From Candidatus Methanoperedens sp. (GTDB lineage Archaea > Halobacteriota > Methanosarcinia > Methanosarcinales > Methanoperedenaceae): a stretch of 64,000 bases of DNA. Both the position numbers and the translations under genes were made by a program. Positions within the stretch are counted from its first letter, which is position 1, and every line of letters starts with the position of its first letter. The stretch spans positions 1 through 64,000 of the forward strand of contig JAPMTS010000032.1 of NCBI GenBank assembly GCA_026552955.1, read 5' to 3'. This document shows positions 11,482 to 54,126 of this stretch, in pieces. Below the pieces are notes generated by a model. It ran no database searches. It was not told the origin of the DNA and saw only the letters and a list, made by a program, of their open reading frames with translations.

Positions 11482-14400
11482 TTAGCTGGAAGCAAAACAA
11501 TAAAACAGACCATCACCACCTGTGCTCTGCAGATTTTCTTGGCTGCAACCCCTCGATGCGTGCGATGAAACCCAGGATCTTGAGGATTCGTCATCTCTGA
11601 GACCCAATCTATCATGGTGGCCCACAAATGCACTTCCGTTAGTTGAGCTTGTCCAGTCACGACAGGTAGTGTCATTGGCTGTATCGAATGCTGTGCCATC
11701 CATCCGCGAACCTGTCAATATGTCATGGCGATTTGGCATGTCACCACGTCCATTTATGATTTCTCCTTTTTCACTAAGAGCAGTCTCTTTTGTGATATTG
11801 TTGTTTGAATGCAGGTTGCCTAAGTCTGCTGCTATTAGAATTCCCTTTGCATTGTACCAAGGACCTATGCCGATGCGATCACGAGCGTTCACTCCTTTCG
11901 TGCTCAGGTATGCATGCCATGTTTTAGTGCTGCCTACAGATTCTGCGAGGTTTTGGCAGAATGAATCAGCTCCAGCCAGACCACCCAGATCTGCACCATT
12001 ACCAGGACCTCTACTTGTGATGAAGAAGCTCATTTCTTTTGGTTCTGGTATAACTGGTTCTTTGTTAACCCATTCATCAATTATAGCTGAAAGCTCCAGG
12101 AATGTTATCGAATGTGCAAAACCAGCAGGCGCTGTTCCAGTTCTCCAGTCATCCATGGCTTTTAACAGGTCCCTGGTCTCTACCCTATCGGGATTGCTGC
12201 CAAGTCTTCTGTAATATGCAAAAATATCAAGTGTAATGATATTATTTCCACCTACATCAACAACTCCACTTAAGGTGCTTATTGTCCCGTTAATGGTGTA
12301 CGTTCCAATAGTAGCATCAACCGGTGGGGTTATTGAATAGACAATCTTTTTTGCTATTCCTGGCGTCACATTAGACCATGCCCATTCATGAGTGCTTTTC
12401 TTGAAACCATCTGCATCGTCAGAAATCCTTGTTAATGTCCATCCTTCAGGGATAGACTCCTGGAGAACCAATGATTGAATTACGTCGCTATTTATAATAA
12501 CAGTAATATTTGTTGATTCACCAAGTCGGAGAGACTCTTTCATGATTTCACGTGTGGCATTTTCACCGGATGGCAGCGGCGGCATTAGATTATTGCCAAA
12601 GTCTATTCCAATTACATTTTCCCCTGCCGCCAGAGTCACATTGTATTTCCCGGGCGCTTCCGGGAATGTTTGCTTCCAACCTGCCTGCAGTACCTCCTTC
12701 ACAGAGTAATTCCCTGCTGCCAGCCTCCTGAAGGTATAATTGCCATCAATGTCTGTCATCATTGTCTCAACCGTAGATCCTGTGCTGTTTTTCAGCTCGA
12801 TCGTCCAGTTCGAAAGGCCGGATTCTCCCGGATCTTTTATTCCATTGCCATTTGAGTCATTGAACTTCATGCCTGAGATACTGCCGTTTCCAATTATTTG
12901 TTCTTTTACGGTCCATATCCACATATGCATATCACTGCCGTTTGAATTTGAAGCTACTGCAGTTATGTTCCATTTGCCCGGGGCTGCACTGGTATTAGAA
13001 TAGGACGAGGTATTTACATTGGTCTGGCGGTATATCTCTTCACCATTGATCTGCCAGGAAATAGTAACTATCTGGTTTACATTTATCGTGAAAGTTCTTG
13101 TTGGGCCGCCTGCGATATCAGTCACATTTGATTTTTTCGGGGCAAAGTTCTTGATTTCAGGCGCCTCTGACGGTATTGCTTCAGCAGGTTTTATTTGTCC
13201 CCGTATCTCTCCTGATGGATACTGGTCTGTATGGACATTTACATACTCAGTCTCATTCATTATGGATTCCATTAGCATATCGAGAGACTTTCCAGCTAAT
13301 GGACCTGTCAAATTGGCAGATGTAATGTTACCTTCTGCAAGGAGCCCATCGAACCTTCCCGGGATAAGGATAGCTGGTGGCATATTCGGATATAGCCAGG
13401 CAGCAACCGGACCATTCTTTCCAAAAGACGCCATATGGATATGGGCCATAGTAACATTGGTTATATTTTCTACCATAAGTCTATAATGGAGCATTGTTCC
13501 ATTATCGTTAAGTTCAAATGTGGCGCTGCCTTTTGCCGGAGAGTCAATCGGCGGCACAATCTCATCACCGGAAAGATTAGCTGCAAAAATGCGAGATATT
13601 GCAGCCGGTTTGATCTTGAAAACCTTACCTGTATTGTTTACAGGGCCAAGCATCTGAGAAGTCATGACGTAAACCTCATGGTGGGCATCCTGACCAAAGG
13701 AACGCACAAATGCGCCGATACGTCCATTCTTGCTCGAAGCGATCTTCAACTCTTTTATTGACCACATCTCTCGTCCCTGTGACCTGGCCACGAACAGGCT
13801 TCCATTACCTTCTGTAAATCCTTTACTGAAGTCACCAAAGATATAAGCTCCATTGAATTGAGGCAATGCGCTCCCACGATAAACATACCCGCCAGCAATT
13901 ACTACCCCTATGCCTCCGGTCTGTCTGGCGTTTGCATATTCGATGACGGGATCAACTAAAGGCTTGCCGCTGGCATCCGGACAGCTATCCGGCGATAGGC
14001 TCGGATCATTAGGATCAAAACAATGGGCGCCTTCCTTGATGTTCCATCCATAGTTGCTCCCCTTCGTTACGATATCTACTTCTTCCCAGGCGTTCTGACC
14101 TGCATCGCTGGCAAACAGAGAATGGTTTCCGCCTGCATCGAATGCAATGTGGAATGGATTCCTGAATCCATAGGCGAAGATCTCATCAAGTCCATCCTTC
14201 CCGACAAATGGGTTGTCGTGAGGGATACCATAGGGGGTCCCATTATTTACATCAATGCGAAGGATTTTTCCAAGCATTGTTGAAGTGTTCTGGCCATTAC
14301 CTGGTTGCGGGTGGCCAATGCCGACATCGTTGGCACCACCCCCATCACCCAATGGGATATAGAGATATCCGTCAGGCCCGAAAGCGATCTGTCCTCCATT

Positions 14401-15459
14401 ATGATTCGACTGGGGCTTATCAACCTGCAGTATGACTTTTTCCGTGCCTGGGTCGGATTTATTCGGATCATCCTGGCGGACTCTGAATTCTGATATATTG
14501 CTGGTGTGATCCCAGTTAGCCGGCGCTCCTGACCTCAAGGAGGCGCTGTAATAAACGAAAAAGCGCCCGTTTTGCGTAAAATTGGGATGGAACGCCAGGC
14601 CAAGAAGCCCGCGCTCGTCATATTGCCGCCTCAGGTTCACGATCCTGGAGCTGATATCCATGAAAGGTTCCTGCAGTATCTGTCCATCCGGTGTAAGAAT
14701 TCTTATCACTCCGATCTGGTCTACGATGAATCGCCTTGCGGTTCCATCTTCAGGAGAAACAAGTGCGATCGGGGCCGTGAGGTTTTCCGCTACTAACTCA
14801 AGGTCGATTTCGATTTCATCCACAGGAGGCTGTAACGGAGCTGGCGCAGATATTACTATCACCCTTCCCTTCATAGACGGATGGAAACTACAATGGTAAT
14901 TGAATGTTCCGGTCTCATTGAACGTCCACTCAAAAGTATCTCCTTGATTGAGGCTGCCTGAATCAAGAATACCCGTAATATCACCTGTTACTGTGTGTTG
15001 TTCGCTATCATTATTCGTCCATAAAACAGTCGTCCCTTTTTGAATCGTGATATTTGCAGGATCATAAGCGAAATTCATTATTCCAATCTGGGCAGGAAGT
15101 AAAGATCTGACAGTCCAATCCCATTTGTGCATATCCATCCCTTTGTTACTCGATGCAACTGCCGTGACATTCCATGAACCCTTTGCTGCACTATTATTTA
15201 TATAGGTTGATGTGGTCACCCTTCCATGGGATTGTACCTGAGTTCCATTGATAAACCATGTTACATTTGCTTCCTGATTGGTTGTTATAATGAAAGTTCT
15301 CATTTCTCCAGCATTATTGTTCACTGTTGGTGAACCTGGTAATATACTGACAATTTCATAAGTCATATTTATCTCGTTGGCACTCAAGGCGCTTACTGTT
15401 CCTGCCAGCATTATCAAAAATATCCCAAAAATTCCAAATATAATTCCTTTCCGTGACAT
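11482..15459 (-). CDS. Giant secreted multidomain protein: cupredoxin, sugar-dehydrogenase propeller, CHRD, SdrD-B-like and lectin-like domains
   Basis: 1325-residue exported protein. In order: signal peptide (1-26, GIFGIFLIMLAGTVSA); Ig-like domain (about 30-105); cupredoxin (about 110-205) with copper ligands in EQHTV and YHCSFHPSMKG; glucose/sorbosone-dehydrogenase beta-propeller (about 220-625); CHRD domain (about 635-755) with AHIHMAS and NVHTDQYPSGEIRGQ; second Ig-like copy (about 770-860); SdrD-B/SpaA-like domain starting FNDSNGNGIKDPGESGLSNW; a DUF11-like domain; a dockerin-like helical pair (about 1090-1140); and a C-terminal lectin-like fold with GADLGGLAGADSFCQ and paired cysteines. 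ATG 15459 is chosen because GGGAGG lies about 10 nt upstream; a TTG further out overlaps that site. Likely extracellular redox or binding; substrate unknown. Confidence 0.8.
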   Translation of the reverse strand: MSRKGIIFGIFGIFLIMLAGTVSALSANEINMTYEIVSILPGSPTVNNNAGEMRTFIITTNQEANVTWFINGTQVQSHGRVTTSTYINNSAAKGSWNVTAVASSNKGMDMHKWDWTVRSLLPAQIGIMNFAYDPANITIQKGTTVLWTNNDSEQHTVTGDITGILDSGSLNQGDTFEWTFNETGTFNYHCSFHPSMKGRVIVISAPAPLQPPVDEIEIDLELVAENLTAPIALVSPEDGTARRFIVDQIGVIRILTPDGQILQEPFMDISSRIVNLRRQYDERGLLGLAFHPNFTQNGRFFVYYSASLRSGAPANWDHTSNISEFRVRQDDPNKSDPGTEKVILQVDKPQSNHNGGQIAFGPDGYLYIPLGDGGGANDVGIGHPQPGNGQNTSTMLGKILRIDVNNGTPYGIPHDNPFVGKDGLDEIFAYGFRNPFHIAFDAGGNHSLFASDAGQNAWEEVDIVTKGSNYGWNIKEGAHCFDPNDPSLSPDSCPDASGKPLVDPVIEYANARQTGGIGVVIAGGYVYRGSALPQFNGAYIFGDFSKGFTEGNGSLFVARSQGREMWSIKELKIASSKNGRIGAFVRSFGQDAHHEVYVMTSQMLGPVNNTGKVFKIKPAAISRIFAANLSGDEIVPPIDSPAKGSATFELNDNGTMLHYRLMVENITNVTMAHIHMASFGKNGPVAAWLYPNMPPAILIPGRFDGLLAEGNITSANLTGPLAGKSLDMLMESIMNETEYVNVHTDQYPSGEIRGQIKPAEAIPSEAPEIKNFAPKKSNVTDIAGGPTRTFTINVNQIVTISWQINGEEIYRQTNVNTSSYSNTSAAPGKWNITAVASNSNGSDMHMWIWTVKEQIIGNGSISGMKFNDSNGNGIKDPGESGLSNWTIELKNSTGSTVETMMTDIDGNYTFRRLAAGNYSVKEVLQAGWKQTFPEAPGKYNVTLAAGENVIGIDFGNNLMPPLPSGENATREIMKESLRLGESTNITVIINSDVIQSLVLQESIPEGWTLTRISDDADGFKKSTHEWAWSNVTPGIAKKIVYSITPPVDATIGTYTINGTISTLSGVVDVGGNNIITLDIFAYYRRLGSNPDRVETRDLLKAMDDWRTGTAPAGFAHSITFLELSAIIDEWVNKEPVIPEPKEMSFFITSRGPGNGADLGGLAGADSFCQNLAESVGSTKTWHAYLSTKGVNARDRIGIGPWYNAKGILIAADLGNLHSNNNITKETALSEKGEIINGRGDMPNRHDILTGSRMDGTAFDTANDTTCRDWTSSTNGSAFVGHHDRLGLRDDESSRSWVSSHASRGCSQENLQSTGGDGLFYCFASS

Positions 15460-15598
15460 GGTTATTAATCCTCCCAATTTTCCCTCTTTGTTTACTTAAG
15501 AAAAATCATCTTTTCTCAAGATCAATTTTTTTTTCCACTCGCTAACAATTCATTGTAAGATTTATTATATATAGATTACGACGTAATAAATAAAGAAT

Positions 15599-16849
15599 TT
15601 ACTCTTCTGTAGTCCTTTTCCTGCTCTTTAATACTTTTTCATAAACTTCTTCTGCCATCTGTGCTGTTTTTTCCCAGGTATAATTGGATGCAGCGATCTT
15701 TGCGTTCGTTCCAAGTTTGTGCGAAAGTTCAGGATCTTCCAGAAGTTGAATTATGGCTTTTGAAAATTCTTTAATATTTCCATTCTCAATTATCAATCCC
15801 GTATTTCCATGTTCAAGATTTTTCGCAGAGCCTTCGAAAGAAACAATTGCTTTTCCTGCGGCCATATAATTCAATATTTTCTGAGGAATCCCGGGGCATT
15901 CGATGCGGGAATTCAATGCCACATCCGCATTCACAATATACGGGGGAATCTCTGCAAAATCAAACCGTAATATATCAATATACGCCCTGATCCCAAGCGC
16001 CTCAGCCAGAGGCTCGTAATTGTCAAAAGGAGAATCTGAAATGATAAGAAGACGAACATCATCACGTTGACCCAACACTTGCGCAAAAGCTCTTAGAAGG
16101 AGATCGATCCTCTGATAAGAGGCTAAATTGCCTGTAAAGATCAATATCTTAATTTTTCGTTCACATTCCTTGTTTTTTTCAGGTTTGATATTGAACTGGT
16201 CAAATTCAACCCCACTCGGTATTACTGAAATTTTTGAAGGTGATACTTGTTTATGCCGGGTTAATTCTTTCTCTATGTCGTCTGTGACTGATACTACATA
16301 GTCTGCCATATTTGGAATTAACATGTCAAGACGCCTGGCAATGTCATTTCTTATGTATTTTGGCAATCCAAATTCATAGTATGGAAGTTCTGATGTCAAA
16401 ATTGTATGAGCATCATAAATTACCGGATGTTTCGTCAATTTTCGCACACCGATAGATACAAGAAGTCCTTCATAATTATGGGCATGTATAAGATCGATCT
16501 CATACGTTCTCAGAATATTATATAATTTTATGGCTAAAAGTAAATCTATAAATAATAGTTTTTGGAATGTTGGTCCGGGAGAACATTTTCGGTATGTTTT
16601 TACATCAGGTATACGATGAATCTTGAAAAGATCCTGTTTTACGTCAACTCCGAGATGATAGGTGACAACATGTACTTCATGCCCCCTCCTTGCAAGTGCT
16701 TGCGCCATTTTGAATATCCTGATAGGCGTTCCCCGGGGGTAAGGAAAAGGACATGCAGCCACCATTGCGATCTTAAAAAGTCTACTCATAATCAATTTAT
16801 TAACTTTATCCCGGTCGATTTCAGTAACCTGCGAAAAAACGGATTCCAT
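15599..16849 (-). CDS. Glycosyltransferase family 4
   Basis: 416-residue GT-B glycosyltransferase. An N-terminal acceptor domain begins MVAACPFPYPRGTPIRI with ARRGHEVHVVTYH, and a C-terminal GT1/GT4 nucleotide-sugar domain contains IPSGVEFDQF, ILIFTGNLASYQR and the conserved acidic region near GIPQKILNYMAAGKAIV. It transfers an unknown sugar to a glycan or lipid at the cytoplasmic face. An internal ATG at 16789 aligns better with family N-termini, so the first 20 residues may not be translated; neither start has a clear ribosome site. It stands alone between the giant secreted protein and the divergent actin-like gene. Confidence 0.85.
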   Translation of the reverse strand: MESVFSQVTEIDRDKVNKLIMSRLFKIAMVAACPFPYPRGTPIRIFKMAQALARRGHEVHVVTYHLGVDVKQDLFKIHRIPDVKTYRKCSPGPTFQKLLFIDLLLAIKLYNILRTYEIDLIHAHNYEGLLVSIGVRKLTKHPVIYDAHTILTSELPYYEFGLPKYIRNDIARRLDMLIPNMADYVVSVTDDIEKELTRHKQVSPSKISVIPSGVEFDQFNIKPEKNKECERKIKILIFTGNLASYQRIDLLLRAFAQVLGQRDDVRLLIISDSPFDNYEPLAEALGIRAYIDILRFDFAEIPPYIVNADVALNSRIECPGIPQKILNYMAAGKAIVSFEGSAKNLEHGNTGLIIENGNIKEFSKAIIQLLEDPELSHKLGTNAKIAASNYTWEKTAQMAEEVYEKVLKSRKRTTEE

Positions 16850-17034
16850 TGATTCTTCAAGGTATGCTCCCTATTTGCCATAAAAAGTGAAAAAGGATCA
16901 AAAAATATTTCTTCATTAATCATAAGCCCTGCTAGTACGCACTTCAAATTCATATAGATTTACCAATTTAATAGCAAACTATATATTTTATCAGTGCATT
17001 TGTTTGATATGCATAATTATAATGAGGGATACTT

Positions 17035-18084
17035 TTGGCAACCAGGAAAACAATAAAAAAAGCGAATGCTGCGCCTATAAAGGAAAGCAAGACATTATTC
17101 ATAGGAATTGACTTTGGAACAAACCATACTGCAATATCCACAAGTGATGGAAAGAAAAAGACAATCTTGAGCCTTGTGGGGATCCCGAAGGACGCAGTAG
17201 CATCAAAATTCCTGAAGAAAGAACGCCTCTATGGTGATGAAGCATTAAAGCACAGGGTTGCCCTTAACATGTTCAAACCCATCGAATCGGGATTGATAAA
17301 GAACCAGAGAGAGGACCTGGAGGCTGCAAAGGGCCTGCTTGAATACGTATTAAAACTTGTTGATGCAAACAGGGATGTAAAAAAGTATGCTATTATAGGT
17401 GTTCCATCCCAGGCAAGCGTACTTAATAAAAAAATCATTCGGGAAATAACAAAAGATTTCTTTGATGGTGTAATGGTCGCAAGCGAACCTTTCTGTGTAG
17501 CATATAACCTGGGAGAACTGGAACATTCACTGGTAGTTGATATAGGAGCAGGAACTACAGATATTTGCAGGGTACATGGTACCCTTCCGGAGCCAGATGA
17601 CCAGATAAGCAGCAACAAAGCCGGTAATTTTATTGATACTGAATTAGTGAGGCTAATATCCGAGGAATATACGAATGTAAGAGTAACAAATGAGATGGTC
17701 AAGAAATGGAAAGAGCAGAGTTCCTTCGTTGGCGAACCTGAAGAAGAGATCGTTGTGGATGTACCTGTTGATTCTTCCATACTCAAATTGTCCATCACAA
17801 AAGAAATAAGAAATTCATGTGAGTCCATTATCCCGGATATAATAAATGGCATCTCCAAACTGATATCCACATATGATCCTGACTTCCAGGAAGAATTGCG
17901 AAATAATATCTGGCTGGCAGGCGGGGGCAGCCTGATCAGGAATCTTGATGTGGAACTGGAAAAGGAACTGGAATTAATAGACGGCGGAAAGGTCTTTAAG
18001 GATACAGATCCGGTTTTCAGCGGCGCTAATGGAGCCTTGAAACTGGCCGAGGATATGCCGCCTGAATTCTGGCAAACCACATAG
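17035..18084 (+). CDS. Actin/MreB-ParM-like ATPase
   Basis: 349-residue actin-fold ATPase. Phosphate 1 motif FIGIDFGTNHTAIS near residue 27, phosphate 2 motif LVVDIGAGTTDIC near 167 and the adenosine motif IWLAGGGSLIRN near 303 are all present, so nucleotide binding is expected. A TTG start is used: it follows GAGGGAT at the right distance, and no in-frame ATG lies closer. It ends exactly one base before the ATG of an ArlD/E-domain coiled-coil gene, so the two are surely co-transcribed. Polymerisation and cellular role (shape, segregation or positioning) are inferred only from the fold. Confidence 0.85.
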   Translation: MATRKTIKKANAAPIKESKTLFIGIDFGTNHTAISTSDGKKKTILSLVGIPKDAVASKFLKKERLYGDEALKHRVALNMFKPIESGLIKNQREDLEAAKGLLEYVLKLVDANRDVKKYAIIGVPSQASVLNKKIIREITKDFFDGVMVASEPFCVAYNLGELEHSLVVDIGAGTTDICRVHGTLPEPDDQISSNKAGNFIDTELVRLISEEYTNVRVTNEMVKKWKEQSSFVGEPEEEIVVDVPVDSSILKLSITKEIRNSCESIIPDIINGISKLISTYDPDFQEELRNNIWLAGGGSLIRNLDVELEKELELIDGGKVFKDTDPVFSGANGALKLAEDMPPEFWQTT

Positions 18085-18696
18085 ATGCTGGAAGAACTTA
18101 CTGCAACTTCGATCGAAACCCAGCGAAAGTGGCTGAAATTTCTCCTTGAGAGGGTCGGCCACAACAATCTCCCGAAACTTCTTAATTATTATACGAGCAT
18201 AGGCTGGATAAGCGAATCTGCATCTATCAGGCTGCTTGAGATGGCAAATCTGGAGAAACGCTATAAGGGGGCATCCTGGACCCTATCTGCTGAAGAGCAA
18301 AGAATTTCAAGGTTCTTTATTGAGAAGCTAAAAGGGGGAGAAATCGAAGATTCTCTTCTAAATGTGCGTATTCCGGGTAAAGCAAAACCGGATATTGAAA
18401 AGAAGATGGAGATAAGACGACTGGAACATATTCACCCTGGTGAAAAAAAGAAGATGGAGATCAGCATACACCGCCGCGAGGTCACTATCAATAACCTTGA
18501 ACAGGAACTTGAAGAAAAGTATGCCGAAATAGATAACCTTAAAGAAAAGATACGGGAGCTTGAAACCGCTTTTGAAGAAAACCGGAAAGAACTGAGGAAA
18601 AATAATATGTATAGGGATCTTATGGATCAGAACATCAGGCTAAAAAAAGCAATTCGCCCCCATAAGAAAAATGAAAAATCAAAACGATTGCACTGA
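18085..18696 (+). CDS. ArlD/E (FlaD/E)-domain protein with C-terminal coiled coil
   Basis: 203-residue protein. Residues about 10-65 match the archaellum FlaD/E domain pattern: RKWLKFLLERVGHNNLPKLL, then YYTSIGWISESA. The C-terminal half (about 105-190) is strongly charged heptad-type helix (LEQELEEKYAEIDNLKEKI) predicted as coiled coil. No archaellin or other arl gene is nearby; instead the gene abuts an actin-like ATPase with no gap. A role as adaptor or polar scaffold for the filament is inference. The ATG directly follows the TAG of the upstream gene. Confidence 0.7.
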   Translation: MLEELTATSIETQRKWLKFLLERVGHNNLPKLLNYYTSIGWISESASIRLLEMANLEKRYKGASWTLSAEEQRISRFFIEKLKGGEIEDSLLNVRIPGKAKPDIEKKMEIRRLEHIHPGEKKKMEISIHRREVTINNLEQELEEKYAEIDNLKEKIRELETAFEENRKELRKNNMYRDLMDQNIRLKKAIRPHKKNEKSKRLH

Positions 18697-18700: not shown

Positions 18701-19177
18701 TTAATCATCTTTTTTAAATTTCAATGATTTGAAATGGGGGCCTTTCCAGTACACCATTTTCTCAACATTTATCTGTATTATGACATCATTCTCGCCCAGG
18801 GGCTTATTCTCTATAACTTTCTGGTATTTGCTCTTAAATTCCAGATAAATGTCGATATATAATTGCAGCGTTTCTTCAGAGAGGAAATATATTGGTGCCT
18901 TATCAGTAATGATCGCCTGGCCCTGGGCCATAACTCCTTCATTATTGAAGGGGTTTACCGGGTCCCGGATATCTATAGTTATACTGATATTGGGATTTTC
19001 ACACAGGTTCTTGACCTTTTTTGATCTTTCATTCGTGATGAAAAAAAGTTTCTGGGAATTCTCATCATATATGAAAAAAACCGGAGTCAAGTGCGGTTGA
19101 TCATTGTTATCGCTTGTGCATACATAACCGAAATAGTTACTGTACAGGATATTTCGCATTTCTTCAGGTATTCGCAT
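18701..19177 (-). CDS. Pyridoxamine-5'-phosphate-oxidase-like flavin-binding protein
   Basis: 158 residues with the split-barrel FMN-binding (PPOX) fold: LYSNYFGYVCTSDNNDQPHLTPVFF, then KKVKNLCENPNISITID and a C-terminal VYWKGP strand. Such proteins bind FMN, F420 or heme; the true ligand is unknown. ATG 19177 is preferred over an upstream start because GGTGTG lies just before it and the overlap with the preceding gene then disappears. It follows by 2 nt a membrane protein whose C-terminal half is a related domain (both end IIYWRG or MVYWKG), suggesting tandem duplication. Confidence 0.75.
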   Translation of the reverse strand: MRIPEEMRNILYSNYFGYVCTSDNNDQPHLTPVFFIYDENSQKLFFITNERSKKVKNLCENPNISITIDIRDPVNPFNNEGVMAQGQAIITDKAPIYFLSEETLQLYIDIYLEFKSKYQKVIENKPLGENDVIIQINVEKMVYWKGPHFKSLKFKKDD

Positions 19178-19179
19178 GT

Positions 19180-20406
19180 TCACACCGGGACGCTTATTTG
19201 TTTTGCCCCTCTCCAATAGATTATCTTAACCGGTTTTACTTCAACAAGTATCCTTGCAATAATTGGTGTCAGCTGCCAGGCTTTTGGCAATTCCGATGTG
19301 GAATATTTCTTTGTATATTCAGGATATTTTTTCATGAATAGCAAAAGTGCCTGCACCATGTGAATAAACCGGAAAGGAATGTCCATTATGCCGTAAATTT
19401 TGACTTCTCCGGTAAACAGGACGGCCTTGTTCTGATATATGTTACTCATATCCCTTTTATCGATCAGGAAAGCGACTTTGTTGTTTTCCTGCATAATCTT
19501 TAATTTTCTTGCTTCTTTTGAAGTATTGAACAGGATCTTCTGACCATCAAAAACGTAAACTACTGGCGTTACATGAGTTTTTCCTTTCAATGAAGTGCCG
19601 ATATATGCAAAACTTGACTCATTCACAAGATTATAGATGTCAGGCGGAAGCCACGGCACTGTTGAAATAATATAGGCTGAAATAAGTGACGTCAGTGTTA
19701 CAAAAACCATGAAGGAAAATGTGATCGCGACAAGGAAATTATCTGTCTTGAAAAGAGGTAATAACAGAAGGGAGATCAGCCCGAAGAAGACATTATTGAT
19801 ATCAAGCTGCTGCAGATATCGAAGTTCGGTGTATGGAGTATGTTCAAGTTCGGTTCTTTTTTCCGCAAGTTTTTTTAATCGCAAAGATCTCCATAGAGCA
19901 AGGACTGAGGTCCATATCCCAAGCCCCATCCTGTAGCAAATATCCCATATCAGGAGACTTACGAACAATAATAAGATCACATGCGGATATTTTCCAAGCC
20001 ACATATCCAGCAAATCATTGCCAAGATAGAAAAGATACAGCATAAAAGGAATGAAAATAACAAGCCCAGGCACTGCCTCATAATGATTCTTATGGAAAAG
20101 TATCTCCTTGTACCTCTCGAGCAATTCATTTTCATCCTTACTTAATGGGGCCCTGAATTTTCTCAGTGTCGGCGCAAGTTGCAGGATAAGGAGACTCCAT
20201 GATACTGCAACCAGGATCGCAAGTGAGCCATATAACAGGGAAATTTGCCCGAGTTCAAAAATAAAACCAAGGAAGATACCCAGAACAAGGAGCAGTAATA
20301 ATTGCAGGAGTATGCTGTATTTGTAGGATACAAGGGAAAATGGAGGTATCTTGCCTACGATTTCTTCATATATCCACTTCTTTTCTTTTTTGGCGTCGTT
20401 ATCCAT
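19180..20406 (-). CDS. Membrane protein with C-terminal PPOX-like domain
   Basis: 408 residues. The first 265 contain about six to seven hydrophobic helices in pairs separated by a basic loop (RSLRLKKLAEKRTELEHT). From about residue 275 a split-barrel domain follows: ESSFAYIGTSLKGKTHVTPVVYVF, KKVAFLID-like strands and a final VKIIYWRG. A flavin-type domain anchored behind a multi-pass membrane region suggests a membrane-linked redox or quinone/F420 function, but no partner is visible. It is transcribed with the soluble paralogue downstream. A 16-bp palindrome sits in its upstream region. Confidence 0.65.
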   Translation of the reverse strand: MDNDAKKEKKWIYEEIVGKIPPFSLVSYKYSILLQLLLLLVLGIFLGFIFELGQISLLYGSLAILVAVSWSLLILQLAPTLRKFRAPLSKDENELLERYKEILFHKNHYEAVPGLVIFIPFMLYLFYLGNDLLDMWLGKYPHVILLLFVSLLIWDICYRMGLGIWTSVLALWRSLRLKKLAEKRTELEHTPYTELRYLQQLDINNVFFGLISLLLLPLFKTDNFLVAITFSFMVFVTLTSLISAYIISTVPWLPPDIYNLVNESSFAYIGTSLKGKTHVTPVVYVFDGQKILFNTSKEARKLKIMQENNKVAFLIDKRDMSNIYQNKAVLFTGEVKIYGIMDIPFRFIHMVQALLLFMKKYPEYTKKYSTSELPKAWQLTPIIARILVEVKPVKIIYWRGAKQISVPV

Positions 20407-40476: not shown

Positions 40477-42300
40477 ATGTTATCAGCAATAAGAGACATT
40501 GGGAAATGGCAAATTGCCAAGTCAGGAAAACAAGATTTAGATGTACTTATCAAAGAGCCGAATTTTAAGAACGGAGGAAAACTGGTTTTAATAAAAATAA
40601 ATCTTGATGAGAAAAGATTTGAAGGAGTTGAACTGGAGGACTATGATTCCTCTAAAATCCACAAATACCTTTTCAGAGGAGGGGTATCCCAAGGGCCAAA
40701 TCCAACCCCTATATCAATTATCAATATTAAAAAACCTCAGAAGACTTATGAAGGAAAGATTCAAAAATGGTTCAGTAAATATTCCAACAATAGCGCTAAT
40801 TCAAAGGAAGAAAAAGAATTTATAGAAAACATAAAAGTCATTCTTTTAGATCATCATGATCAAATTGTCCAAGCAATAGATACTTGTATTTCAGACATAC
40901 CTAAAAAAGAAGGTAAGCTTTTAACGTTAAAGATTATGCAAGGTAAAGAATGGAAATATATCGGTGATTTTGAGATTTTTAAGAAATTGCTAACAGAAAA
41001 AGAATCTAAAATAATAGGGGAGAAAATTGCAAATTGCTCTATATGCGGGATGCCAAAAGAGTTATCAGAAGATGTGGGAGTTTTTAAGTTTTACACAACT
41101 GATAAGCCAGGATTCATAAGCGGGGGTTTTAAAGAAGACGATTCATGGAAAAATTTTCCTGTTTGTTCTGTGTGCAAACTTGAATTAGAAGAAGGGCGAA
41201 AGTTTGTTGAAGCTAACCTCAATTATAGGTTTTATGGACTCAGTTATTTACTTATACCAAAACTCCTTCTAACAAAAGTTGATGCCGAAATTATTGGAAT
41301 TTTGCTTGATAGTAATAAGAAGATTTCACTAAAAGAAAGGATAAAGAAAAGAATAACAGATAATGAAGAAGAAATCTTAGAAGCGCTTGCGAATGAGAAA
41401 GATATATTAACATTTAGCTTCCTATTTTTAAAGTCAGAGCAAAGTGCTGAAAGAATATTATTACTTATAGAAGATGTCTTCCCATCAAGAATTAATAGAA
41501 TTTTCAAAGCAAAGGATTATGCTGATGAGATCACAGGGGACAGCTTTACATTAGGAAAAATCAGGTTTTTTTTTACCAAGTCTGATGAGAATAAAAGAGA
41601 TTATGATCTTAATACATATTTTTTAGATATTGTAGATAATATTTTCAGAGGAGTACCAATTGACTTTTCTTTTTTGAATAGATTTTTTTTAATAAAGATA
41701 CGGAGGGACTTTTTAGACTATGATAGTAAAGGGAAAGATAAATTCAATTTTCACTCATCAATAAAAAATGCTTTGATGAGTATAATATTTTTTGAAAATC
41801 TTGGTTTAATAAACTTTGCGGAGATGAAAGATTTGGAAGAAAGTAAATTTGAAGATGTGTTTAAGAAATATGGCAATACCTTTAGCTCACCAGTTAGAAG
41901 AGGGCTTTTCCTTACAGGAGCTTTAACAGAAATGCTGTTGAGAAAACAGGGAATAGAGAGGGGAGCTAAGCCTTTTTTGAAGAAGCTTAAAGGGCTAAAA
42001 ATGGATGATAGAGATATTAAAGCCCTTTTACCTGCAATACAAAATAAGTTTGAAGAGTATAAATCATTCGGGAAAGGGAAACGGCTCGTCGCTGAAGAAG
42101 CGTATAATTATCTCTTTACCTCTGGAGATAACTGGAAATTATCTGTTGATGAGATTAACTTCTTCTTTGCAGGGGGCATGAATCTTGTTGGAGAGATTAA
42201 CAATATTCTGTATGCAAAAGGTGAAAAAGATGTTGATTTAGAAGAAGGCATTCAGTCTAATGAAGAAACAAGTATAAAAAATATTAGTAAGGAGAACTAA
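40477..42300 (+). CDS. cas8b: CRISPR type I-B large subunit Cas8b (Csh1/TM1802 family)
   Basis: 607-residue large subunit of the I-B Cascade complex, expected to recognise the PAM and position target DNA. It begins LSAIRDIGKW and has a zinc-ribbon from CSIC (Cys187, 190) and CSVC (Cys230, 233), a landmark of Csh1-type Cas8b. The rest is helical and Lys-rich, as usual. First gene of the cas8b-cas7-cas5-cas3 interference operon; cas7 starts 3 nt later. Base composition is AT-rich relative to the core genome. Confidence 0.9.
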   Translation: MLSAIRDIGKWQIAKSGKQDLDVLIKEPNFKNGGKLVLIKINLDEKRFEGVELEDYDSSKIHKYLFRGGVSQGPNPTPISIINIKKPQKTYEGKIQKWFSKYSNNSANSKEEKEFIENIKVILLDHHDQIVQAIDTCISDIPKKEGKLLTLKIMQGKEWKYIGDFEIFKKLLTEKESKIIGEKIANCSICGMPKELSEDVGVFKFYTTDKPGFISGGFKEDDSWKNFPVCSVCKLELEEGRKFVEANLNYRFYGLSYLLIPKLLLTKVDAEIIGILLDSNKKISLKERIKKRITDNEEEILEALANEKDILTFSFLFLKSEQSAERILLLIEDVFPSRINRIFKAKDYADEITGDSFTLGKIRFFFTKSDENKRDYDLNTYFLDIVDNIFRGVPIDFSFLNRFFLIKIRRDFLDYDSKGKDKFNFHSSIKNALMSIIFFENLGLINFAEMKDLEESKFEDVFKKYGNTFSSPVRRGLFLTGALTEMLLRKQGIERGAKPFLKKLKGLKMDDRDIKALLPAIQNKFEEYKSFGKGKRLVAEEAYNYLFTSGDNWKLSVDEINFFFAGGMNLVGEINNILYAKGEKDVDLEEGIQSNEETSIKNISKEN

Positions 42301-42303
42301 ATT

Positions 42304-43224
42304 ATGTCAGAATTAATAAAAAATCGCAGTGAGATCCTTTTCCTATACGATGTAACCAATGCCAATCCTAATGGAGATCCAATGGATGAAAACAAACCGA
42401 GGATTGATGAAGAGACCGGGAAAAACATTGTTACAGATGTCAGATTAAAGAGAACGATCAGGGATTATCTACATGATTACAAGCAAAAAGATGTTGATGT
42501 ATTTATAATAGACACTAGAGATGACAAGGGTAATTTAAGAACCAAGGAAGATCGTTTAGGCGACTTTAAAACTCAGGAAGATTTGCTTGATAAATGTATA
42601 GACATAAGACTTTTCGGTGCTACTACCGCAGTTGAAGGAAAAAACATGGTATTAACTGGTCCTGTCCAGTTTAAATATGGACGATCACTCCATAAAGTCG
42701 ATTTAATTTATATAAAAGGGACAACCGTGATGCCTTCTAAAGCCGATAAAAAACAAGGAACATTTACAGAGAGATACATTCTTCCCTATTCTCTTATTGG
42801 ATTTTATGGAATTGTAAATGAGAATGCAGCATCAAATCAGGGACTTAAGTTAACAGAAGAAGATATTTCTTTGATGCTTGAAGGCATCTGGAATGGGACA
42901 AAAAACTTAATATCTGGTTCCAAATTTGGACAAATTCCCAGATTATTAATGCAGATTGTATATAAAGAGGGTAATTTTTACATTGGAGAATTGGACAAAA
43001 GGATATTCCATATTACAAATAAAAACAATGAAAAAGAAATAAGGGATATATCCGATCTAAAAATAGACATAACAGATCTCACAAAGGCCTTGAATGAATA
43101 TAAAGGCAAAATTGAAAAGATCAGGTTGAAAGTTGATGAAAGAATTACCTTTATGTCAAACGGGCAAGATATTAAGATAGAGAATGCTTTGAGCGGATTT
43201 ACAGTAGAATTTCTCAAATATTAA
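42304..43224 (+). CDS. cas7: CRISPR backbone protein Cas7 (Csh2 type)
   Basis: 306-residue RAMP protein that forms the crRNA-binding backbone of Cascade. The N-terminus has the family signature EILFLYDVTNANPNGDPMDEN with LKRTIRDYL, and RLFGATTAVEGKN further on. AAGGAG lies just before the ATG. It sits 3 nt after cas8b and 8 nt before cas5. Confidence 0.95.
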   Translation: MSELIKNRSEILFLYDVTNANPNGDPMDENKPRIDEETGKNIVTDVRLKRTIRDYLHDYKQKDVDVFIIDTRDDKGNLRTKEDRLGDFKTQEDLLDKCIDIRLFGATTAVEGKNMVLTGPVQFKYGRSLHKVDLIYIKGTTVMPSKADKKQGTFTERYILPYSLIGFYGIVNENAASNQGLKLTEEDISLMLEGIWNGTKNLISGSKFGQIPRLLMQIVYKEGNFYIGELDKRIFHITNKNNEKEIRDISDLKIDITDLTKALNEYKGKIEKIRLKVDERITFMSNGQDIKIENALSGFTVEFLKY

Positions 43225-43232
43225 AGGCAATT

Positions 43233-43964
43233 ATGAAAGTATTAGTTTTTGACATCTGGGGAGATTATGGGCATTTTCGAAAATTTTACACGACATCGTC
43301 CCCCCTTACTTTTTCATTCCCACCACCTTCAACTATAGCAGGTATTTTAGGTGCAATTTTTGGAGCAAGTAAAGACGAATATTTAAAGATTTTTTCTCTA
43401 ACTAAATGTAGGATTGCGCTCAAGATTGTTAAGCCCATTAAAAAAGTAAGAATGGGATTGAATTTTATAAATACAAAAGGTAATTATTGGACACCAATAT
43501 TAAGAATTACTCCAAAAAGCACCCATGAACCAAGAACTCAGATTAGAACTGAATTCTTGAAGGATCCTTATTTTAGAATTTACTTTATTCATGAAGATGA
43601 AACGATTTTATTTAGACTTGCCAAGTTTGTAGAAGAACATAACAGTATTTACACAATTTCTTTAGGCTTAAGCGAATTACTGGCTGATTTTAAATTCATT
43701 GGAATCTACAATACAGAGAAAATTTTAAATGGAGCAGCGGTTGAAATTTACACCCCAATTGTTGCAAGCAATCTGACTCCTAACAGATTCGAGATCGAAC
43801 CAGAAAAAAAATATTTTAAGGAAAAAATCCCGATTATAATGAATCCTGAAAGAATAATTGAAAAATACAATGATGTAATTTTCGAGTCTCAAGGAAAGAC
43901 CATAAAGGCACAATTAAACACTTATTATAAGCTTGAAAATGGAGAAAATATTGCCTTCTTCTAA
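43233..43964 (+). CDS. cas5: CRISPR-associated protein Cas5 (type I-B)
   Basis: 243-residue RAMP that caps the 5' handle end of the crRNA in Cascade. The N-terminus VLVFDIWGDYGHFRKFYTTSS is followed by the Pro-rich FSFPPPSTIAGILGAIFG typical of Cas5h. It overlaps the start of cas3 by 26 nt. Confidence 0.93.
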   Translation: MKVLVFDIWGDYGHFRKFYTTSSPLTFSFPPPSTIAGILGAIFGASKDEYLKIFSLTKCRIALKIVKPIKKVRMGLNFINTKGNYWTPILRITPKSTHEPRTQIRTEFLKDPYFRIYFIHEDETILFRLAKFVEEHNSIYTISLGLSELLADFKFIGIYNTEKILNGAAVEIYTPIVASNLTPNRFEIEPEKKYFKEKIPIIMNPERIIEKYNDVIFESQGKTIKAQLNTYYKLENGENIAFF

Positions 43965-46305
43965 CCTTTATTCTCACCCTGGCAGACTGTTGGAAGAACA
44001 TTTAATTGGTGTGGCAAATTTAGCTGACTCATTTTGTAAAGACAAATCATTCCCTCAACAAGAACGACTAAAAATTCTAACCAGAACAATTGCATTATCT
44101 CATGACTTAGGTAAAGCAACAACATTTTTTCAAAATTACTTAAAAGCAGATGAGAAAGAAAAACTAAAATTTAAAAACCAAAAAGAAACCCATCATGGGC
44201 TTTTTTCAGCAGTTTGTGCTTATTATCTTGTTAAAGAATTATTGTATAGAACCAATGAAGATGTTGGATATTATCCTTTCTTTGCTTTCGAGGTTGTTAA
44301 AAGGCATCATGGTAATTTGCAGGATTTGATTGATGAAGCAATCTTTAATGATGAAGATAAAAAATTAGTTAACAAACAGCTTGAAAATATCAATGAAGCA
44401 AAATTTACTGTCCTCTCACAACATCTTTTTGAAGCTGGTCTGCCGATTAAACTAACAAAAAAGAATATTTCTGACTGGATTGATAGATTTCCAAAAGAAT
44501 TAAGAGCTATCAAGAAAGCTCTGCGTCTGAATATTGGTGATGCCTCAAATTATCTGCTTTTGAATCTTCTTTATTCCATTTTACTTGATGGTGATAAAAG
44601 CGACGTTGTAGTTAGAGATATTTCCCACTTTGATAGGCAAACAGGGAGTATTTCGGTGAATATTGTAGATACATATAAGTCTAAACAATCATTTCAGGAG
44701 TCATCAATTAATGCGATAAGGGAGTCTGCGTATCGCGAAGTCATTAATAAAGAGATCGATATTGAGAAAAGATTTTACTCAATAAATCTACCCACAGGTC
44801 TTGGAAAAACCCTTATTTCCTTATCCTTTGCTCTAAAATTGCGGGAATTGGCGAATACTAATACCCAGGGCAAATTTGTACCACGAATTATATACGCATT
44901 ACCGTTCTTAAGTATAATCGAACAAAATAGTGATGTTATTGAGAAAGTGCTCAAAGCCAATGGGATTTCACCATATAACAACATATTATTGAAGCACCAT
45001 CATTTATCCGAAATTTCATATCAGATTAATATAAATGAAGATTTTGAATCAGATAGCGCAAAAATCATGATAGAGGGATGGAACTCTGAAATTATTGTTA
45101 CAACTTTTGTTCAATTGTTTCATACTTTGTTAACAAATAGAAATAAGAATCTTAGAAAGTTCCATAGGATCAATAATTCCATAATTATCCTTGACGAGAT
45201 ACAGTCCATCCCAATAAAATATTGGTTATTAATTAAAACAATTTTCCAATTTATAACGGAGAAATTAAATGTTTATGTCATTTTTGTGACGGCTACAGAA
45301 CCGCTTATCATTGAAAAGAAGGATATGGTTAGCCTTGTTGAAAGAGATAAATATTTCAAGACAATGAATAGGGTTATACTAAAACCATCACTTGATAAGG
45401 ATTTAACACTGGAAGAATTATATTATACTTTTAAAATCGAGCAAGACAAAAGGTATCTCTTTATTTTCAATACCATTAGCGCCGCCAAAAAGTATTATGA
45501 GTTAGCTAAAGCAGACCACAAAGATATTTCCTTCCTTTCAACTCATATAATTCCAAAAGAAAGACTTACGAGGATTAGTGATATGAAGAAGGGTAAATAT
45601 AAGATTGTAATCACTACTCAGCTTGTCGAGGCTGGAGTGGATATAGACTTTGATATAGTGGTGAGAGATTTAGCTCCACTAGATTCTATTAATCAGGCTG
45701 CTGGAAGATGCAACAGAAATAATTTTGGCAAGGAAAAGGGAGATGTTTATGTTTTTTCGCTTAAAGATGAAAATGGTAAAAAATTTTCATCATATATATA
45801 TGATTCAGTTTTAATTGATATAACAAAAAAGATATTAGGTAAACATCAAGAAATCCAAGAACAAGAATTTCTTGAACTTATAAATAATTATTACAAAGAA
45901 ACCTTTGAGAAAAAATCACATGATGAATCAAGAAAGATATTAGAAGCGATTGGAAAGTTGCGGTATGATTCTGAAGAGCGTGAGAATATATCTATTTCTG
46001 ATTTTAAATTAATAGATGAAGATTATCCTAAGAAAGATGTTTTTGTTGAACTTGATGACGATGCCAAGGAGCTTTGGAGCAAATACATGGAGCTTAAGGC
46101 AAAAGATTTATTTGAACAAAAAAAGGCATTTGATGCAATTAAAGCAGATTTCTATCAATATGTTATTTCAATTCCAACAAAAGTAAAGAATTCTCCTCAA
46201 GAAGGTGTTTTCTTGGGTTATGTGAGAAATGAAGTTCTAGCTGACTATTATAATTTAGAGACAGGGTTCATAACAAAGGATGATAGAAGTATTATTATAT
46301 GGTGA
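43939..46305 (+). CDS. cas3: CRISPR effector nuclease-helicase Cas3
   Basis: 788 residues from ATG 43939 (a TTG two codons earlier is not needed). N-terminal HD nuclease: HPGRLLEEHLIGV, ALSHDLGKATTFF (His55, Asp56) and KRHHGN. Superfamily 2 helicase from about residue 270: Walker A LPTGLGKT, Walker B ILDEIQSI, motif III VTATEPL, and motif VI NQAAGRCNRNN. It unwinds and degrades DNA recruited by Cascade. It overlaps the cas5 end by 26 nt and closes the interference operon. Confidence 0.95.
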   Translation: MEKILPSSNLYSHPGRLLEEHLIGVANLADSFCKDKSFPQQERLKILTRTIALSHDLGKATTFFQNYLKADEKEKLKFKNQKETHHGLFSAVCAYYLVKELLYRTNEDVGYYPFFAFEVVKRHHGNLQDLIDEAIFNDEDKKLVNKQLENINEAKFTVLSQHLFEAGLPIKLTKKNISDWIDRFPKELRAIKKALRLNIGDASNYLLLNLLYSILLDGDKSDVVVRDISHFDRQTGSISVNIVDTYKSKQSFQESSINAIRESAYREVINKEIDIEKRFYSINLPTGLGKTLISLSFALKLRELANTNTQGKFVPRIIYALPFLSIIEQNSDVIEKVLKANGISPYNNILLKHHHLSEISYQININEDFESDSAKIMIEGWNSEIIVTTFVQLFHTLLTNRNKNLRKFHRINNSIIILDEIQSIPIKYWLLIKTIFQFITEKLNVYVIFVTATEPLIIEKKDMVSLVERDKYFKTMNRVILKPSLDKDLTLEELYYTFKIEQDKRYLFIFNTISAAKKYYELAKADHKDISFLSTHIIPKERLTRISDMKKGKYKIVITTQLVEAGVDIDFDIVVRDLAPLDSINQAAGRCNRNNFGKEKGDVYVFSLKDENGKKFSSYIYDSVLIDITKKILGKHQEIQEQEFLELINNYYKETFEKKSHDESRKILEAIGKLRYDSEERENISISDFKLIDEDYPKKDVFVELDDDAKELWSKYMELKAKDLFEQKKAFDAIKADFYQYVISIPTKVKNSPQEGVFLGYVRNEVLADYYNLETGFITKDDRSIIIW

Positions 46306-46854
46306 TTTATATGACCCTCTACAACTTCACTCCCGCCGCCCCTCCCGTCCATCCCCCCGCCCCCTCTCCTCACCACTCCCAGGCGCGCTGCATGCGGACA
46401 GGCGGCGCAAAGAGCATACGGAGAAATGATATGATTACACAAACTTGCAACCAATTCAATAAATCTGCGTTCATCTGCGTTCATCTGCGGTTTGTTTTAG
46501 ATTATTTTTTGCTGCCATATTTTTCTATGAAACCTGCGCTTGCAAGCGATAGCGCTAGATTTTTAACACAGTTTAATGATATATTTTTTAAAATAAACCA
46601 ATGGAGGATAGGTGAAAATTAACATGAACCTGCTTCCTCTGCATCGATATTCAAAGAATTATTATTTATCCCCGTTTTCCAGATTTAATTCAAATAGAAC
46701 ACGGATGACGCGGATTGCGCGGATCTTCGCGGTTCCGTTTGCATCCGCGTCATCCGCGCGATCCGTGTTCTATCGTTCGATTTCTCTCTTAATCGAAGAA
46801 AAATGTAACCTCCGGGCATTTATAACCAATCTTAATAGTTTCAATAATTACATA
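46306..46854. repeat. Gene-free stretch with remnant and palindromic sequences
   Basis: No supported gene. 46313-46380 is unusually C-rich. 46464-46493 repeats TCTGCGTTCATCTGCG. 46696-46771 is a large palindrome whose arms read AGAACACGGAT-GACGCGGAT-GCGCGGAT and the complement, separated by about 17 bp. These CGCGGAT elements also form the core of DR1. Short ORFs here read through repeats and are not credible. Confidence 0.55.
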
Positions 46855-46886
46855 CACCAAAGTTAACAAAATTGATAACCATAGTG
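46855..46886. repeat. 32-bp palindromic direct repeat, left copy of AbiE module
   Basis: CACCAAAGTTAACAAA then ATTGATAACCATAGTG. The right copy (48455-48486) differs at two positions. Each is itself an imperfect palindrome (CAC...GTTA...TAAC...GTG). This copy lies just ahead of the AbiEi start at 46896, where an autoregulatory operator would be expected. Confidence 0.6.
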
Positions 46887-46895
46887 CATACAAAT

Positions 46896-47654
46896 ATGAA
46901 TAAGAAATATCAACTCCTTAACGAACTTGCAAGAAAAGGTCAAACATTCACATTCGAAGATGCAGCCAGAATCAGCCGCCTCGGCAGCCAGAGCCTTAAA
47001 GTAACTCTCTCCCGCATGGAAAAGGAAGGCTGGATCGAGCGCATTGAAAAAGGGAAATATATCCTGATTCCTCTTGGCGCCAAAAAAGGAGGATATACGA
47101 TCAATGAATTCCTTATCGGCTCGCAACTCGTCAAACCTGCTGTCATAGCTTACTGGAGCGCTCTTAATTACCACGGATTCACGGAGCAGATACCGAATAC
47201 TGTTTTCATACAGACCACATCAAGAAAAAAAGAACAGGAACTTGAGATTTTTGGCGTCAGATACAGGATAGTCAGAATAACAGAAAAAAAAGTATTCGGA
47301 TTTGAAAAGGTATGGATAGATGACGTTGCCGTTCTAATTACCAACCCGGAAAAAACAGTGGTGGACTGCCTTGATAAGCCCCGGTACTGTGGCGGAATAG
47401 CAGAAACGGCAAAAGCGTTGCATGGTGATCTTGATATAGAGAAGCTTAAAAAATATGCAATAGATATAGGCAATTCTGCGGTCATAAAAAGACTCGGGAT
47501 ACTCTGCGACAAAATGGGAATAAAATTAGATGTCGAGCCCGGATTAATATCAGGAAACTATCCCCTTCTTGACCCCTCGATGCATGGAAAAGGCATTCTG
47601 AACAGGAAATGGAAGATACGGGAAAATGTAAGTGAGAAATACCTGGTGGAATAG
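46896..47654 (+). CDS. abiEi: AbiEi type IV antitoxin
   Basis: 252 residues from ATG 46896. N-terminal winged helix KYQLLNELARKGQTFTFEDA with SLKVTLSRMEKEGWIERI; the C-terminal antitoxin domain includes AYWSALNYHGFTEQIP, NPEKTVVDCLDKP and YCGGIAETAKAL, the AbiEi/DUF6088-like pattern. It represses the operon and counteracts AbiEii without direct contact in the studied type IV systems. It ends 1 nt before the toxin ATG. The 32-bp palindrome upstream is a candidate operator. Confidence 0.88.
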   Translation: MNKKYQLLNELARKGQTFTFEDAARISRLGSQSLKVTLSRMEKEGWIERIEKGKYILIPLGAKKGGYTINEFLIGSQLVKPAVIAYWSALNYHGFTEQIPNTVFIQTTSRKKEQELEIFGVRYRIVRITEKKVFGFEKVWIDDVAVLITNPEKTVVDCLDKPRYCGGIAETAKALHGDLDIEKLKKYAIDIGNSAVIKRLGILCDKMGIKLDVEPGLISGNYPLLDPSMHGKGILNRKWKIRENVSEKYLVE

Positions 47655-47655
47655 G

Positions 47656-48444
47656 ATGATTCGCGATATTGAGATCAAGGAGAAAGCAAGAGAGAATGGT
47701 GTTCCTGAGACCACAATTGAAAAAGACTATGCTTTGAACTGGATATTGAGATCTCTTAACCAGCAAACTGATTCATTTGTTCTCAAAGGAGGTACAGGAT
47801 TGCGAAAAGTCTATTTTAAGAACTATCGTTTTTCTGAAGACTTAGACTTCACAATGCTAAAAAGTACCGGAAGGTCAGACATTGAACTCGTGATAAAAAA
47901 GGCGATCCAGACGGCAAAAAGAGATAGCGGCATCAATTTTCATGATAATATTGAATCAGAAGAAAACATTAATGGATATAAAATAGACATCTATTTCAGG
48001 ATATTCAGGCGCGGAGGAAATCCTCTGCGTATAAAATTCGACATCACAAAACCTGAAAACGAAACAATTATCCTGCCTCCCATAATGAAAGATATTTTCC
48101 ATCCCTATTCAGATGATTATTATTCAATTGCCTGTGTGTATTCTATCCATGAGATCATGGCAGAAAAAATACGTTCCTTGTTTGAACGAACAAGAGCAAG
48201 GGATGTATATGATATCTGGTTCATATCGAAGAATATCGATATGGAACAGGTTTTTGAAATATTTCCTGCAAAATGTGCATTCAAGAAAATAATGCCAGAT
48301 TTCGAAGATTTACTTGATCGAAAAAAGGATTTTCAGAATGCATGGAAAAGTTCTCTCGGACATCAATTAAAAGCTTTACCCGATTTTGAATCGGTATTCA
48401 ATGAGGTTACAGATTTGATGAGCAATATTAGAAGAAAAGGATAA
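47656..48444 (+). CDS. abiEii: AbiEii nucleotidyltransferase toxin
   Basis: 262 residues from ATG 47656, with GGTGGAATAGG as ribosome site. Nucleotidyltransferase motifs KGGTGLRK and FSEDLDFTM (the D-x-D metal pair), then KIDIYF and the second conserved block HEIMAEKIRSLFERTRARDVYDIW. In the MenT/AbiEii family this enzyme blocks growth, likely by modifying tRNA 3' ends. It sits between cas3 and cas6 in a module bounded by 32-bp repeats. Confidence 0.9.
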   Translation: MIRDIEIKEKARENGVPETTIEKDYALNWILRSLNQQTDSFVLKGGTGLRKVYFKNYRFSEDLDFTMLKSTGRSDIELVIKKAIQTAKRDSGINFHDNIESEENINGYKIDIYFRIFRRGGNPLRIKFDITKPENETIILPPIMKDIFHPYSDDYYSIACVYSIHEIMAEKIRSLFERTRARDVYDIWFISKNIDMEQVFEIFPAKCAFKKIMPDFEDLLDRKKDFQNAWKSSLGHQLKALPDFESVFNEVTDLMSNIRRKG

Positions 48445-48454
48445 AACTTCTGGA

Positions 48455-48486
48455 CACCAAAGTTAACAAAATTGATAACTATGGTG
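48455..48486. repeat. 32-bp palindromic direct repeat, right copy of AbiE module
   Basis: Same sequence as 46855-46886 except for two changes (TAACTATGGTG here). It lies 10 nt after the abiEii stop, so the whole AbiE pair is bracketed by direct copies about 1.6 kb apart. Confidence 0.6.
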
Positions 48487-48549
48487 AATCAAATTATGAA
48501 AATGAAATATTAAGAAAGATTACAAATAAGCATCGATTCACAGAAAAAG

Positions 48550-48600
48550 CCCGCCATCAGTGGCGCCTCACCGGGCTGGGGTCGAAACCCCAGCGCTGGA
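48550..48600 (-). repeat. Dispersed GC-rich palindromic element, copy C (partial)
   Basis: Minus-strand copy: CCCGCCATCAGTGGCGCC, then GGCTGGGGTC and ACCCCAGCGC. It has the GGCGCTGGGG hairpin and the GGCGGG arm but only a decayed tail. It lies between the AbiE module and the IscB omega-RNA. Confidence 0.6.
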
Positions 48601-48654
48601 AAACTGAAAAAAGAGTCAGTCTTTAAATAATTATAAAGCAGAAGGAATAATGGT

Positions 48655-48979
48655 CAATTACCCCTACTAAAAGTCGGGGGCATGTCCCGTGAGGGCTGTG
48701 AGAAATTAGTTGACAAGGAGGCTTAGAAATATGCAGAAGTTAGAAGAAAGAAATACATACACACCCACCGATATTCCGCACGTCGGTGGCAACTGTGATT
48801 GGATATTAAACAGACCCGAAACATCGGTTCACGCTGTATCCACGTATGGCGCAGCCATACGTGTGTACGACGTAAACTGGCGCAACGGTTTAGAGGAAAC
48901 TCTCAGTGTATCCGGTTTAAAAACATCTTCTAACAACTCCGATGCGGCTCTAATTGCGATAGAACACGCAAAGCAGAAC
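48655..48979 (+). ncRNA. IscB omega-RNA (predicted)
   Basis: IscB proteins are guided by an omega-RNA encoded immediately upstream of the ORF. Here the 325 nt upstream of iscB hold stacked hairpins: CCCC/CGGGG around 48661-48681, GTCCCGTGAGGGC around 48685, CCACCGA (48765-48771)/TCGGTGG (48783-48789), and a perfect 10-bp stem CACGTATGGC (48841-48850)/GCCATACGTG (48854-48863) with a 3-nt loop. The segment is also open in the iscB frame from 48710, but stems this regular point to RNA. The guide end, near 48655, is not fixed by sequence alone. Confidence 0.65.
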
Positions 48980-51152: not shown

Positions 51153-51172
51153 AAAACGGCCTTTATCTGTCG

Positions 51173-51254
51173 ATTTATGCAACCATCGATTTGATAGAAA
51201 ATCCCGCCATCGGCGGCGCCTCACCGGGGTCTGGGGTCGCAACCCCAGCGCCGT
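51173..51254 (-). repeat. Dispersed GC-rich palindromic element, copy D
   Basis: Full minus-strand copy lying between hepT and cas6: TTTATGCAACCATCGAT tail, ATCCCGCCATCGGCGGCGCC arm, then GGTCTGGGGTC with ACCCCAGCGCCG. It matches copies A and B along about 82 bp when reversed. Confidence 0.65.
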
Positions 51255-51308
51255 GATGATAGAGAGGCAAGAAGTCAAGAAACAAAGCGCATTAAAAAGT
51301 GAAAATAT

Positions 51309-51971: not shown

Positions 51972-52073
51972 CTTAACAGAATTAACTTTAATAATATATA
52001 TACTAAAACTGACAAATATGATAAATATGATAATGCAGGATAAAATTGAATAAAATTACCAGATATTAGCTCT

Positions 52074-52851: not shown

Positions 52852-52852
52852 C

Positions 52853-54126
<1,274 letters not shown>

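Follow-up and report, generated by a model that had tools for sequence, protein, structure and literature searches.

Organization and genomic setting of the gene pair

The window, i.e., the whole stretch of 64,000 nucleotides analyzed here, is part of contig C13 of a Candidatus Methanoperedens genome (2.48 Mb in 54 contigs, 95% complete). Reading of its open reading frames revealed two genes on the plus strand, coding for an actin-like ATPase and for a partner protein, which form a unit flanked by neighbors on the opposite strand (Table 1). The TAG stop of the actin gene ends at 18084 and the ATG of the partner gene begins at 18085, leaving no spacer between them. A Shine-Dalgarno sequence, GAGGGA (17024 to 17029), lies 5 nt before the TTG start of the actin gene, and an AT-rich TATATATTTTA stretch near 16981 is likely to be the promoter of the unit.

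Table 1. Features in and around the actin-partner unit (positions in the window)
Feature	Position	Strand	Description
Glycosyltransferase gene	15599-16849	-	Divergent, upstream of the actin gene
Divergent intergenic region	16850..17034	+	Likely promoter and Shine-Dalgarno sequence, as read from the sequence
Actin-like ATPase gene	17035..18084	+	349 aa, TTG start
Partner gene	18085..18696	+	203 aa; N-terminal ArlD/E domain, flexible linker, long C-terminal helix
ArlD/E domain (PF04659, Arch_fla_DE)	18121..18336	+	Helical, pLDDT mostly 85 to 96
C-terminal helix module (alignment A1, 66 positions)	18451..18648	+	Candidate actin-binding segment
PNPOx-type gene	18701-19216	-	Convergent, downstream of the partner gene, 4-nt gap

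Scanning of ca. 40 window proteins detected no members of archaellum, chemotaxis, or magnetosome families. An earlier note, made from the sequence alone, had described two genes that abut without a spacer and have no archaellum genes near them, and both observations are confirmed here. The archaellum is encoded on other contigs of the same genome, with the gene of a 376-aa FlaC-D/E fusion protein adjoining that of a KaiC-type (ArlH-like) ATPase on C50, and the archaellins on C10. As for the rest of the window, the PNPOx-type gene listed in Table 1 is adjacent to a second one (19180 to 20406, minus strand), fused to DUF7530, and the ends of the two overlap. A 1,331-aa protein combining cupredoxin, glucose/sorbosone dehydrogenase-like, CHRD, and SdrD_B domains is encoded on the minus strand at 11482 to 15477. 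Type I-B CRISPR-cas genes (cas8b, cas7, cas3, cas6b, cas1, and cas4), together with an array of ca. 50 repeats of 37 nt, are found at 40477 to 54716 and 54815 to 58500, with nucleotidyltransferase/HepT-like and AbiEii-like genes interspersed among the cas genes.

An actin of the MamK type

The 349-aa product of the first gene was above the Pfam cut-off for both MreB_Mbl (77 bits) and Actin (58 bits). Its AlphaFold2 model (pLDDT 90, pTM 0.85; residues 1 to 17 disordered) had as the best match among solved structures the MamK filament (5ljv; Z 43.6, rmsd 1.5 Å over 324 residues, E 2.4e-40), followed by BeeR (Z 39.5) and by eukaryotic actins and MreB (Z of about 34). Among the PDB sequence matches, Magnetospirillum MamK (256 bits) ranked above BeeR (130) and MreB (49), and the identity to MamK was 37.7% across 329 aligned residues. 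The protein has the hallmarks of the actin superfamily, namely, the actin fold, the phosphate loops GIDFGTN and VDIGAGTTD, and the adenosine motif AGGGS, and it also shares with MamK a C-terminal GALKLAEDMPPEFW segment. Residues E151 and D169 align with E143 and D161 of MamK, whose mutation leads to the loss of ATPase activity and filament dynamics (PMC5059902), and all 19 Methanoperedens copies retain both. With the NCBI MamK model (NF040964) the score was 395.4 bits, just below the curated cut-off of 400, a value that no protein exceeded in any of the 393 genomes of the phylum sample. Judging from sequence and model, we classify the protein as a MamK-type actin, MamK being its nearest known family, and by analogy it would form a nucleotide-dependent (ATP-dependent) filament. 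A search of the window's genome for a second relative found none, even at E values of up to 1.

This likeness extends to the way in which MamK works, since it also acts with coiled-coil or acidic adaptors, e.g., the network of coiled-coil Mad proteins in Desulfovibrio magneticus (PMC12748827). The differences are the archaeal host, the score below the cut-off, the finding of no magnetosome gene in the window, and a partner whose annotation shows no relationship to MamJ, McaA, or the Mad proteins. BeeR (8r2n), a bacterial actin, was the second-best match in fold and sequence, but here the window actin scored 205 bits against a cut-off of 530. Salactin is, like the present protein, a euryarchaeal actin for which MamK was reported to be the nearest family (PMC10746226), in passages that describe no coiled-coil partner gene. 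With the salactin models the window actin scored 35.6 against 400 (NCBIfam) and 27.2 against 27.1 (Pfam), far lower than with MamK, and the non-haloarchaeal Methanotecta sequences of salactin may overlap the present family.

The closest named relatives of the window actin are those of Methanoperedens MAGs and of Methanoperedens sp. BLZ2 (78 to 93% identity). Within the order, the actin was found in 54 of 186 genomes, comprising 19 of Methanoperedens, 6 of a family labeled f3, 3 of genus g27, and 26 of genus g23; f3 and g27 would correspond to an ANME-2 family and to ANME-3, respectively, and g23 probably to Methanolobus. In the actin tree, which contains long branches and just one MamK sequence, the archaeal actins formed one clade (support of 96/99) beside MamK (94/64), with BeeR outside. 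Within this clade, Methanoperedens branched first, then f3, and then g27 together with g23. This is the order expected from the kinship of the genera and would fit vertical descent, the simplest reading being one origin before the families of the order split, many losses, and the loss of the D/E head of the partner in g23. Transfer between methanotrophs was also considered, given that the lineages with D/E-bearing partners look like a methanotroph set, yet it is not needed because the actin tree fits vertical descent.

The layout of the locus, two genes for an actin and a small partner, recalls ParM/ParR, and the pair might thus segregate a plasmid or other element. We regard this as very improbable, since the nearest family of the actin is MamK and not ParM, its tree follows the order of vertical descent, and no recognized DNA-binding domain is present in the partner. 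Besides, no relative was found in viral contigs and plasmid records gave only weak matches, none above the level of MreB (24 to 26% identity), for which reason a mobile or viral origin was likewise rejected.

The g23 actins (loci L095 to L105, L069, L074, and L075) stand apart by their degenerate phosphate and adenosine motifs. GAGTTD is changed to, e.g., GYNRTN or GASKLD, GGGS is changed to GGTS, and the position of E143 is variable. Having lost these nucleotide motifs, they may not hydrolyze ATP normally, and a dynamic filament is doubtful in this genus; they are possibly pseudo-ATPases that are still kept together with the partner.

The partner protein and its distribution

In the product of the second gene, PF04659 matched residues 14 to 84 with 52.9 bits (gathering cut-off of 21; E 3.5e-14), a match that was also recovered by the genome scan. 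The model consists of a helical head up to about residue 95, a floppy linker (ca. 100 to 115), and a single helix from 118 to 190 (pLDDT mostly >90). The intact actin fold and the FlaD/E-type domain joined to a coiled coil, both of which the earlier note had read from the sequence, thus stand, the latter in the profile search that had been named as the way to refute it. The head keeps much of the archaellar D/E consensus (e.g., LLERVGHNNL versus LLEKVGRNNL), but it differs from ArlD and ArlE of the archaellum switch complex in having no FlaC part, in carrying the C-terminal module, in its link to an actin, and in being present without archaella. In a tree built from about 113 columns, every actin-linked head fell on one side of a branch (95/88) with respect to the archaellar copies of the same family. 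A search of solved structures with this head gave no convincing match, which means merely that none was found.

The unit is kept across several related archaeal lineages. Among the 31 genomes of the genus Methanoperedens, 19 have the actin, in every case with the D/E partner 0 to 3 nt downstream, and the 12 without the unit indicate that it is dispensable. In f3, g27, and g23, a coiled-coil gene comes next, at -4 to about 60 nt downstream of the actin gene, wherever the next gene could be read. The conservation of the pair, on which the earlier note had also staked its proposal, therefore extends beyond Methanoperedens to other Methanosarcinales. In the loci read, partner lengths were 888 to 1,940 aa in f3 (N runs in the assembly interrupt the 888-aa protein, and three other f3 partners extend beyond the end of their contig), 630 aa in g27, and 447 to 607 aa in g23. 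No neighbor common to the lineages was found beyond actin and partner within the stretches read. Open-access publications on MamK or actin in Methanoperedens, ANME, Methanolobus, or Methanosarcinales yielded no description of this pair.

What all partners have in common is only the final segment of ca. 66 residues, which is nearly gapless and has R, I, L, and N residues invariant in 18 diverse rows. The profile of the Methanoperedens module picked up the partners of g23, f3, and g27 (E 1.5e-10 to 5.5e-3), with the next best match at E 0.39, and the reverse profile search showed the same clear gap to unrelated coiled coils, except for the longest f3 rods. In the phylum sample, the full-length module (at least 40 bits) occurred in exactly the same 23 of 393 genomes as the actin (MamK-like, >150 bits), one weak second copy of the module falling below 40 bits. 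The head, on the other hand, varies by lineage. Partners start with the D/E domain in Methanoperedens, f3, and g27, while those of g23 have the short motif FTPNIYRKP, found as F(T/I)PNIYRKP near residue 19 in the 14 g23 partners examined and absent from every other ORF of the fetched loci. From these alignments, we take the C-terminal helix to be the part that tracks the actin and the D/E domain to be a replaceable end, the length of the rod being variable as well.

Related proteins were also detected away from the actin. In about 15 g23 genomes, an additional coiled-coil protein of ca. 281 to 309 aa, unlinked to the pair, ends in the same module (e.g., at loci L106 to L114), in some cases with <40 bits. 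Two Methanoperedens genomes without the actin (G016 and G021) encode a different coiled-coil protein, in which the D/E domain is C-terminal (L117:8469-9779 and L118:7546-9150), and matches to it also appeared in G011 and G014; in the actin-less genomes it is possibly an alternative system.

Putative roles of the pair

We consider it probable that the two genes are a self-contained cytoskeletal unit, made of a MamK-type filament and an adaptor with its C-terminal helix on the actin and its head on a cargo or cell site. Such a unit looks like an undescribed archaeal cytoskeleton. The first gene would supply the actin that assembles into a nucleotide-dependent filament. The ca. 66-residue helix of the partner would bind it at the side or the end, the coiled-coil rod of lineage-specific length would act as a spacer, and the N-terminal head would dock the filament, the roles of helix and head being suggested by their patterns of conservation. 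The head of Methanoperedens and of two further lineages is an ArlD/E domain, which would have been recruited from the switch-complex family of the archaellum, and in the fourth lineage its place is occupied by the FTPNIYRKP motif. The main reason for this adaptor model is the constant helix combined with a changing head and rod length.

Adjacency and co-occurrence could also fit a regulator of the actin that carries no cargo, i.e., a nucleator, capper, or depolymerizer. This is a serious rival, albeit an improbable one, that agrees with the tight translational linkage and with a common part that is just a short conserved helix; arcadin-2, for instance, is a regulator of crenactin. However, a rod of 190 to 1,940 aa and a folded head in three lineages suit a spacer or linker better. 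Crenactin and the arcadins resemble the present pair in that the genes of an archaeal actin and of a small partner of its own occur together, but we take crenactin to belong to another actin family and presume that the D/E domain and the C-terminal module are not arcadins.

Given that the head belongs to the ArlD/E family, that archaellins are found in most Methanoperedens genomes, and that the ArlCDE subunits bind one another and presumably lie between the motor and the polar cap (PMC8978795), the head might instead join the ArlCDE ring or the polar cap, with the actin holding the motor at the pole. We think this unlikely. Four genomes (G048, 100% complete; G052, 97%; G051, 80%; and G054, 83%) have the pair but neither archaellin nor any other D/E domain, so that the pair is not a part of the archaellum. 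Conversely, g23 genomes have archaellins and a partner without the D/E head, of the 12 Methanoperedens genomes that lack the actin, 10 still have archaellar D/E copies, and the pair is unlinked to archaellum genes. An identity as the archaellum component ArlD or ArlE was rejected as well, with no arl gene nearby and the pair occurring in genomes without archaellin. This shows the re-use of an archaellum domain outside the archaellum. CheF is the known link from ArlCDE to chemotaxis, and it was not found in the window's genome, its archaellum genes notwithstanding, nor in any listed Methanoperedens genome, and chemotaxis docking via CheF was therefore rejected. Thus, of the dedicated adaptor with a borrowed archaellum/chemotaxis docking domain proposed in the earlier note, the dedicated adjacent partner and a D/E head apart from the archaellar copies remain, and the chemotaxis half is not supported.

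In 11 of the 14 g23 loci read (L095 to L105 and L119 to L121; e.g., L102:6045-12408), the pair is directly preceded on the same strand by CHAD, polyphosphate kinase (Ppk), and Ppx/GppA genes, and 21 of the 26 g23 genomes have Ppk no farther than 3.5 kb from the actin. This neighborhood suggests a role in polyphosphate granules in this genus, and a filament that positions polyphosphate bodies could be conceived for the whole family. As a general explanation it has little probability. There were no CHAD or Ppk1 matches in the window's genome, no Ppk1 above the cut-off in 18 of the 19 actin-bearing Methanoperedens or in the actin-bearing f3 and g27 genomes, and four g23 genomes have the actin without Ppk. 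Across the order, actin and Ppk were unassociated (Fisher p 0.75), a distribution by which polyphosphate was rejected as the general cargo. A polyphosphate role would be at most a use specific to g23.

A wider version of the cytoskeletal reading, which we put forward only tentatively, is that of a modular MamK-type cytoskeleton dating from a Methanosarcinales ancestor. The actin-binding helix would have been kept and the rod and head exchanged to position different structures, with one lineage (probably Methanolobus) having a catalytically degenerate actin beside polyphosphate genes. The function for which MamK-type actins are known in bacteria is the positioning of an organelle, the magnetosome. 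If the two-gene unit is indeed a cytoskeleton, methane-cycling archaea, including those without archaella, would possess structures that need positioning and filaments with which to do so, and since g23 probably includes culturable Methanolobus species with a version of the unit, the idea would be testable.
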